DNA of 64,000 bases from contig JAFQCG010000001.1 of assembly GCA_017416535.1 (NCBI GenBank), positions 513,013 to 577,012 on the forward strand, read 5' to 3'. Positions 29,104 to 31,399 of this stretch are shown here, piece by piece. Under the pieces are notes generated by a model. The model saw nothing but the letters and a program-made list of their open reading frames with translations, did no database searches and was not told the DNA's origin. How positions within the stretch are numbered: position 1 is the stretch's first letter; every line of letters begins with the position of its first letter. The stretch comes from Bacilli bacterium (GTDB taxonomy: Bacteria > Bacillota_I > Bacilli_A > RF39 > UBA660). Both the position numbers and the translations under genes were made by a program.

Positions 29104-29107
29104 TTAA

Positions 29108-29137
29108 AAAGGCACTGTAAATACGGTGTCTTTTTTG
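29108..29137 (+). terminator. Intrinsic terminator after glmS
   Basis: Stem AAGGCACTG / CGGTGTCTT (two G-T pairs) and six T, 12 nt before the poly-G promoter. Confidence 0.75.
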
Positions 29138-29148
29138 TTGTGGAAAAC

Positions 29149-29179
29149 TTGACAAAAAACGTGGGGGGGGGGGTACAAT
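29149..29179 (+). promoter_or_regulatory. Promoter with an 11-G tract in the spacer (likely phase-variable)
   Basis: -35 TTGACA is at 29149-29154 and -10 TACAAT at 29174-29179. The 19-bp spacer ends with eleven consecutive G (29163-29173). Nine G would give the ideal 17-bp spacer. A homopolymer of G in such AT-rich DNA at exactly this site is the classic layout of slippage-driven phase variation. Confidence 0.8.
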
Positions 29180-29207
29180 TTTACTAGAATGAAGGAGTGT
29201 TGATAAA

Positions 29208-29900
29208 ATGGAAAAAGCAAGACACGTAAAAATATTATCAATAGTAGCATTAGTGATTGCAATAGCTGGAATGACACTAGGTTTTGCAGCATTTTCTACA
29301 ACACTTAATATTTCTTCGAGTGCAACTGTAACACCATCAAGTGATGATTTTAAGATTACTATTTATGGTATAAAGGATTCTTCATTTTATGATACTTTTG
29401 CAGATAATAATTATGCTTATACTGATAGTGATATAAGTGATAGTTATGGTACAGCTTTGATGGACGGTGCAACAGGAACTATTGCAAGCATTGATAATGT
29501 TTCACATACAATTTCTAATATTAATGCTAGTTTTTCTAATGAAGGTAATATTCAGTATGCTTTTATCATAAAAAATGAGGGTATGTATGATGCTTATTTA
29601 GATTTGACTAACAAAAAAACAGGTAATGATATGGTTGTATTATTAAATAAAAACTGTATTGCTAAGGATGGTGCTACGGAGTCGTTAGTTGCTTCTGCCT
29701 GTGACGGTGTACAAGCTGATATTGGTTTTTTTAATAAAGAAAATGGTACTTTTATTTCAACTACAGAATCATATTATAAAATCGCACCAGGAGATGATGT
29801 TCTTTTTGCAGTTATTATGAACTATTCAGGTCCTTTTGCTGATGGACCGTTTGATGTTGAATTTGAAGATTTTCAATTAAAGTTTTCTACTACAAAATAA
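29208..29900 (+). CDS. TasA/camelysin-like secreted surface protein
   Basis: 230 aa. The N-terminal basic segment and hydrophobic helix (~8-30) are followed by AAFSTTLNISSSATVTPSS, a signal and first strand typical of the TasA/CalY family of fibre-forming or SipW-processed proteins. The rest is beta-rich and acidic, with Cys at ~145 and ~165. Likely exported and cell-surface exposed. SD AAGGAG. Transcription comes from the poly-G promoter, so expression may switch between cells. Family assignment is by N-terminal pattern and remains tentative. Confidence 0.6.
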   Translation: MEKARHVKILSIVALVIAIAGMTLGFAAFSTTLNISSSATVTPSSDDFKITIYGIKDSSFYDTFADNNYAYTDSDISDSYGTALMDGATGTIASIDNVSHTISNINASFSNEGNIQYAFIIKNEGMYDAYLDLTNKKTGNDMVVLLNKNCIAKDGATESLVASACDGVQADIGFFNKENGTFISTTESYYKIAPGDDVLFAVIMNYSGPFADGPFDVEFEDFQLKFSTTK

Positions 29901-29906
29901 ATATAA

Positions 29907-29937
29907 ATATTACTACTTTGATAGTAATATTTTTTTT
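29907..29937 (+). terminator. Intrinsic terminator after the TasA-like gene
   Basis: Stem AATATTACTA / TAGTAATATT with a CTTTGA loop and a T-tract. Confidence 0.8.
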
Positions 29938-29995
29938 GACTTGTAATTAGTGTGAGTGTATAATAATTATAGAATAGAATAGTGTGGTGAAGTAT

Positions 29996-31399
29996 ATGGG
30001 TAATACTCGTAAAAAGAAACCTGATTTTAAAGAAGGTACTATTAATGGTGTGAAGTCTAGTAGTTCTAGAAGACTTTCTAAACAAGAAAGACAACAACAA
30101 GAATATTATAGTTTAGTTAAAATGCTTGTTAGTTGTATTTGCGTTTTAATAATGGTATTTGTATTAAATTGGATAATTACAAGTAGTTTTACTTTTAATG
30201 GTATATATTATGAGGAACCTAAAGATAACGAAGTTATTGAAGTTATTGAAGACGGGGAAACTCATGAAAGAGTTAATCTTCATTTAAATGGTAAACTTAC
30301 TATTAAGTTAACTGAAGGTGAAAAGTATGTTGAACCTGGATTTACTGCGACTAGTGATCTAAAAGGAGATATTAGTGACTATGTTATTGTTTCTGGTAAA
30401 GTTGATACTGAAACAGTTGGTACATATCAATTAAAATATACTTTATCTTATAGAGGGATTAGTCCTACATTAACAAGACTTGTTAAGGTTGAAGCAAAAC
30501 CTATTAAGGAAGAGACAACTAAGAAACCTGAGACTGATAAAGAAAATACTGTTGATAAAGATAAAGAAAGCAGTTCATCTAAACCAAGTAGTGGAGGAAG
30601 TTCAAATTCTACAACTAAACCATCTACAAAACCTAGTGGAGGTTCTAATAGTAATGGTGGTTCTAATAATGGAGGAAGTACTAATACTAAACCGGAAGTT
30701 AAACCGCAAGGAAACATTACTTTAAAATTAAATGGTAATGCAACAGTTTATGTAGTTGAAGGTGGAAGTTATAAAGATGCTGGAGCTAAGGCAACTGATA
30801 ATAATGGTACTAATGTATCTAGTAAGATAACTGTTAGTGGTTCTGTAAATACAAATGTTGCTGGTACTTATAAGATTACTTATAGTATTAAAAATTATAA
30901 TGGTGAAACTTTAACAGTAGTTAGAAATGTAATTGTTCAAGCAATGGGTATTTCATTAAAACTTGATAATAGTGCTCCAACTAATAAATCAGTAAATATT
31001 TTAGTTAATACAAATGTTGATAACTTTAATAGATTAATGTTACCAAATGGTACTAAAGTTCCTAATAAAGTTTATACTTATAAAGTAACAACTAATGGTA
31101 CTTATGAATTTGTTGTATTTAATACAGCTGGTAATTCAAGAAAAGCAACTATTATAGTTAAGAATATTGATAAAGACAAGCCTAAAGGTAAATGTTATAT
31201 TACACAATTAAGTGATGCTACTCAAATAAAAATAGAGGCATCTGACTATAGTGGAATTGATAAGTATATTTATTCTGGTAAGGAATATAATGAGAATACT
31301 ATAACACTTACTCGTAAACTTGCTTCTGGTATTCAATTAAATGTTGGATTCTATGATAAAGCAGGAAATTACGGTACTGCTAATTGTTTAGTTCCATAA
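29996..31399 (+). CDS. Membrane-anchored surface protein with two DUF5011-type Ig-like domains
   Basis: 467 aa from ATG 29996; the in-frame GTGs before it form the GGTGAAG SD. It has a basic cytoplasmic start, one TM helix (~40-62), an Ig-like domain with KLTEGEKYVEPGFTA (~95-165), a long Lys/Ser/Gly/Asn low-complexity linker (~170-240), a second copy with YVVEGGSYKDAGAKA (~245-315) and a C-terminal beta region with three Cys. Such domains are spacers or binding modules on cell-wall proteins. No sortase signal is visible; anchoring is N-terminal. Confidence 0.8.
   Translation: MGNTRKKKPDFKEGTINGVKSSSSRRLSKQERQQQEYYSLVKMLVSCICVLIMVFVLNWIITSSFTFNGIYYEEPKDNEVIEVIEDGETHERVNLHLNGKLTIKLTEGEKYVEPGFTATSDLKGDISDYVIVSGKVDTETVGTYQLKYTLSYRGISPTLTRLVKVEAKPIKEETTKKPETDKENTVDKDKESSSSKPSSGGSSNSTTKPSTKPSGGSNSNGGSNNGGSTNTKPEVKPQGNITLKLNGNATVYVVEGGSYKDAGAKATDNNGTNVSSKITVSGSVNTNVAGTYKITYSIKNYNGETLTVVRNVIVQAMGISLKLDNSAPTNKSVNILVNTNVDNFNRLMLPNGTKVPNKVYTYKVTTNGTYEFVVFNTAGNSRKATIIVKNIDKDKPKGKCYITQLSDATQIKIEASDYSGIDKYIYSGKEYNENTITLTRKLASGIQLNVGFYDKAGNYGTANCLVP

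Follow-up and report, generated by a model that had tools for sequence, protein, structure and literature searches.

Can a run of 11 G, placed exactly between the two hexamers of a promoter, act as a switch for the gene behind it? The question is raised by a locus in the window, the stretch of 64,000 nucleotides of a Bacilli bacterium that was analyzed here, which has a GC content of 27% and, over its 64 kb, no other G run longer than 5. According to the original prediction, the run would vary the promoter spacer and thereby the expression of an exported, TasA-like surface protein, the recorded state being a weak one. Judged from the sequence, we put at about 0.85 the probability that this is a sigma-A promoter whose spacer, set by slippage, makes a one-gene surface unit phase-variable.

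All parts of the locus lie on the plus strand. The glmS transcript is ended by an intrinsic terminator, a hairpin with a T run (29106..29135; fold −14.4 kcal/mol, z −6.1). Following this terminator, a conserved element, GTGGAAAAC (29140..29148), directly precedes the −35 hexamer and is common to nearly all promoters of the class in the genus. The segment GTGGAAAAC / GTGGATAAC could be an UP element or a regulator site, and it resembles a DnaA box read on the opposite strand. The −35 hexamer TTGACA (29149..29154), the non-G portion of the spacer (AAAAACGT, 29155..29162; 8 nt, with 6–9 nt in the aligned promoters of the genus), the G11 tract (29163..29173) and the −10 hexamer TACAAT (29174..29179, placed by sequence and alignment) were read from the sequence. 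The tract abuts the −10 and is the proposed slippage site, with sister tracts of G8–G11. The predicted placement of G11 flush between TTGACA and TACAAT, with a spacer of 19 bp, was correct in coordinates and arithmetic. Downstream, a conserved initial region TTTACTAGAA (29180..29189), within which transcription is predicted to start near 29186, is followed by a Shine-Dalgarno-like AGGAG (29193..29197) and the ORF of an exported 230-aa protein belonging to a multigene family (29208..29900, ATG at 29208). A second hairpin with a T run (29905..29938; fold −7.8 kcal/mol, z −5.5) closes the one-gene unit. The promoter was not listed by a sigma-70 scan of the window, because that scan allows only spacers of 16–18 nt. 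A 62-aa minus-strand ORF across the G tract was treated as chance.

Homopolymers were counted by pattern searches in the window's genome (G000; 1.5 Mb in 35 contigs). Six G runs of at least 9, each G9 or G11, were found where 0.04 were expected on both strands (Poisson p ~6e-12). All six lie inside one promoter form, TTGACA-N6-9-Gn-TA[CA]AATTTTANTAGAA, and none elsewhere. A search for TTGACA followed, after a gap of 6–30 nt, by TANAATTTTANTAGAA, in which no G was required, returned the same six sites and nothing else, and the reversed-pattern control gave 0 matches in G000; promoter and G run are thus inseparable in this genome. Similarly, the three occurrences of GTGGANANCTTGACA in the whole genome are all at poly-G promoters. 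Alignment with the congeneric copies revealed conservation from GTGGAAAAC through TAGAAT beyond the −10, and the full shared block, present six times in G000, is GTGGAAAAC-TTGACA-N6-9-Gn-TA[CA]AATTTTANTAGAAT. Even where genes and species are otherwise unrelated, their blocks of ~50 bp are 92–96% identical, which suggests that the promoter block was copied or is strongly constrained. With its G11 between a recognizable −35 and −10, the window promoter has the layout of the porA / tp0126 type, which calls for a homopolymer of about 8 or more in that position.

The six ORFs behind these promoters in G000 all begin with a hydrophobic, signal-like segment. Two belong to the family of the window protein, and DUF285 / PARCEL-like domains are present in two others. 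A fifth has a C-terminal NPKTG-TM-basic tail resembling that of sortase substrates, and the sixth encodes a 639-aa protein with a signal-like N-terminus, for which no family match was obtained. A surface or exported product is thus indicated for all six promoters by the N-termini, the anchor-like NPKTG tail and DUF285. A hydrophobic N-terminus was present in 50 of 65 poly-G-driven ORFs and in 53 of 179 control ORFs (p ~6e-11), as scored by a simple hydrophobicity test rather than a signal-peptide predictor. For the window gene itself, a conserved signal-like N-terminus fits the predicted export.

The remainder of the window protein is variable in the family alignment, and neither a Pfam or NCBIfam family match of note nor a significant PDB sequence match was obtained. 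Membership of TasA/CalY (camelysin) by sequence was rejected, as no family model matched. An AlphaFold2 model, built from seven sequences, gave a beta-sandwich with pLDDT 77. Its best structural neighbors were 7pnb (Z 5.9) and 7ueg (Z 5.8), the archaeal 0406 filament and bundling pili; the TasA fibre 8aur followed with Z 5.1 (rmsd 3.7 over 127) amid a background of other sandwiches, and Z values of 5–6 are common among beta-sandwiches. Four matches above the TIGR02228 cut-off point to SipW-type signal peptidase in the genome, this model spanning archaeal/SipW-type peptidases generally. The label 'TasA-like' has no sequence match in Pfam, NCBIfam or PDB to draw on, and the similarity of fold comes at low Z; given the peptidases and the modeled sandwich, a TasA-like surface fibre is plausible though weakly supported. 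Beside a full paralogue, at L009:12012-12158, lies a truncated version (49 aa) of the N-terminus of the window protein, likely a decaying duplicate.

Tract length was compared at corresponding promoters. At an orthologous sister promoter, for which flanking genes were aligned, the run is G11 in G000, G9 in the congener G001 and G8 in the congener G002, with spacers of 17, 16 and 15 bp, respectively. A closer comparison was provided by the 85-kb contig JAFSGC010000002.1, which is filed under another genome and matches G000 over 84.7 kb with 98.9% identity; by this identity, it is conspecific DNA, misbinned or transferred. At the C4:288643 sister promoter, this contig has G10 vs G9 in G000, while only 4 of 246 A/T runs of 6–9 in the same aligned DNA differ in length. 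The contig (C4 of G398) belongs to a MAG in which the best match to glmS, on contig C12, is only ~71% identical to that of the window; misbinning is the probable explanation, transfer the other. Over 68 collected promoters, for which the search pattern had a floor of 7 G, tracts ranged from G8 to G13. In every case the tract abuts the −10, and exactly 9 nt precede the G run in 48 of the 68. Recorded spacers of the class span 13–21 bp and are mostly 18–20 bp. Loss of mismatch repair was considered as a cause and ruled against, since mutS is present in the window's genome and the system has thus not been lost outright, a point that weighs against the switch.

The two congeneric genomes carry 4 (G001) and 5 copies (G002) of the promoter, G002 reaching five by looser matches. 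The strict pattern was found in 5 of 386 genomes of the family, including all three genomes of the window's genus examined. In a broader sample, TTGACA-N4-14-G8-TATAAT matched 24 sites in 13 of 392 Bacillota genomes, and the reversed control across the same 392 genomes gave 0. A scan of a genome collection showed similar promoters in isolates such as [Ruminococcus] torques ATCC 27756 and Emergencia sp. 1XD21-10; matches from that collection with only 5–6 G were discounted as ordinary promoters or products of chance. A match in G006 lies within a coding frame and hence is not a promoter, and a search of viral contigs gave no match. Several poly-G tracts of G701 and one of G655 fall outside this promoter layout, so that poly-G alone is not diagnostic in these genomes.

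The largest set was found in G146, of the same family and another genus, with 52 tracts of G9 or longer, 51 of them followed by T. Of one form, TTGACAATACC...Gn...TTATTA, 37 promoters were aligned; their tracts are G9–G11 and their spacers 18–21 bp, none being 17 bp or shorter. This narrow range could reflect a constrained length or an optimum above 17 bp and counts against reading the tract as a switch. Nearly all G146 promoters examined precede paralogues with a membrane/signal segment and a DNVQDAIDG stretch, some of which have a C-terminal, phage tail-fibre-like Gp10_C domain. Many G146 contigs terminate at these promoters.

The surroundings of the window promoter bear on its origin. In both congeners, glmS is directly followed by the Ig-domain gene that in G000 comes after the window protein gene; poly-G promoter, gene and second terminator thus form a discrete cassette, found at this place only in G000. 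Gain of the cassette in G000 would be the more economical account, three genomes being too few to root the direction. The Ig-domain gene (29999-31399) has a separate promoter, TTGACT-17-TATAAT; its product is anchored in the membrane and carries bacterial surface Ig-like domains (PF16403, E 1e-36).

In the proposed mechanism, a single G would be gained or lost by slipped-strand mispairing in the run between −35 and −10. The distance and helical phase between the hexamers would be altered, and with them the transcription rate of the surface-protein gene. By the precedents of porA, tp0126 and tprL, discussed below, gain or loss of G should change promoter output. Six copies of one block would then give the cell a few surface genes that each switch independently, and surface proteins of G000 are probably turned up or down at random. 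Sequence comparison gives slipped-strand phase variation good support for this class of promoters; that the window tract slips in living populations and that its length sets transcription is what we infer. The predicted phase variation is thus supported at the level of the class, through the six copies, the relatives, the orthologue lengths and the G9/G10 sister, and is probable for the window tract itself. The arithmetic by which a loss of two G gives 17 bp is right. From the usual optimum it is reasonable to suppose that the recorded 19-bp state is weak, but since most recorded copies have 18–20 bp, the optimum of these promoters may be longer, or most copies may have been recorded OFF.

Other explanations of the tract were weighed against a slippage-set switch. 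The promoter blocks might serve mainly as recombination sites by which surface-gene cassettes are shuffled and spread, tract variation being a by-product. Such a role would fit the near identity of the ~50-bp blocks before unrelated genes, the cassette behind glmS in G000 and the many contig breaks of G146, although simple repetition also yields contig breaks. Recombination leaves unexplained why a full promoter with a homopolymer in its spacer is retained and is compatible with switching rather than opposed to it; as the main function, we regard it as unlikely. Somewhat less probable still is that the G run does not switch but belongs to the fixed structure of a specialized promoter, contributing the altered twist of G-rich DNA or forming a regulator site with GTGGAAAAC. 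Lengths of G8–G13, which vary among orthologues as well, spacers of 13–21 bp and the one-base difference between conspecific DNAs speak against a fixed element, for which a slippage-prone tract would moreover be needless. The strict abutment on the −10 with its prevailing 9 nt, the narrow G9–G11 range in G146 and the conservation outside the hexamers (GTGGAAAAC upstream, TTTANTAGAA downstream and GT before the G run) are nevertheless what such an element would lead one to expect. Finally, these are metagenome assemblies, in which the exact length of a homopolymer may be one base off. That the poly-G calls as such are assembly or sequencing artefacts is very improbable, since the runs are internal, have unique surroundings and turn up in the same promoter again when independent assemblies and other species are examined; runs of the same kind occur in isolate genomes such as the two named above, and the reversed pattern gave 0.

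The phase-variable promoter with its slippage-set spacer is thus our preferred reading for the window. A wider proposal is offered more tentatively, at slightly less than even odds: uncultured gut Bacillota would share a widespread, unrecognized class of phase-variable promoters with poly-G spacers, whose block in this family spreads with surface-gene cassettes and uses its own element GTGGAAAAC, and which in one related genus would comprise ~50 tracts, most of those examined standing before one family of anchored proteins, some with phage tail-fibre-like domains. If true, each cell would display a random subset of a large repertoire of binding proteins. Work on phase variation in the gut microbiota has dealt mostly with DNA inversion; the promoters described here would add a route based on slippage, used by uncultured Bacilli with reduced genomes and by other gut Bacillota. 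Surface proteins would then be expected to vary from cell to cell in organisms not yet culturable. The promoter signature is recognizable and lends itself to direct counting in existing metagenomic reads, and the isolates of [Ruminococcus] torques and Emergencia are places for testing. A literature search, of incomplete coverage and hence no proof of absence, returned no report of such promoters in gut Bacilli, nor of RF39 with phase variation.

The type of mechanism is already known from porA, tp0126 and vlp; what appears to be new is the lineage in which it is found, the use of one block by different surface genes, and the scale. In Neisseria meningitidis, the −10 and −35 of porA, fetA and opc are separated by homopolymers, whose length is considered to alter sigma-factor binding (PMC2791445). 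These share with the window locus a homopolymer spacer before a surface-protein gene, but belong to an unrelated lineage and are single genes, whereas here one block is repeated before many surface genes. In Treponema pallidum, the poly-G of tp0126 lies between −35 and −10 with an optimum of 17 nt, the promoter tract of tprL varies from G7 to G11 in vivo, and promoter poly-G length controls transcription of both (PMC7864442). Poly-G likewise occurs in the promoters of several putative surface proteins (tp0126, tprL, tprE/G/J), in a spirochaete, however, and with unrelated blocks and products. Bordetella pertussis is reported to have phase-variable loci that depend on homopolymer length (PMC1891110); the likeness lies in the principle, the organism being a proteobacterium with other loci and control. 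In Mycoplasma hyorhinis, each gene of the vlp surface family has one homopolymer-containing, phase-variable promoter (PMC10502178). This is the nearest architecture and the nearest match to the G146 set, with the differences that its tract is poly-A and its products are Vlp lipoproteins. The vlp family is far smaller than the set in G146.
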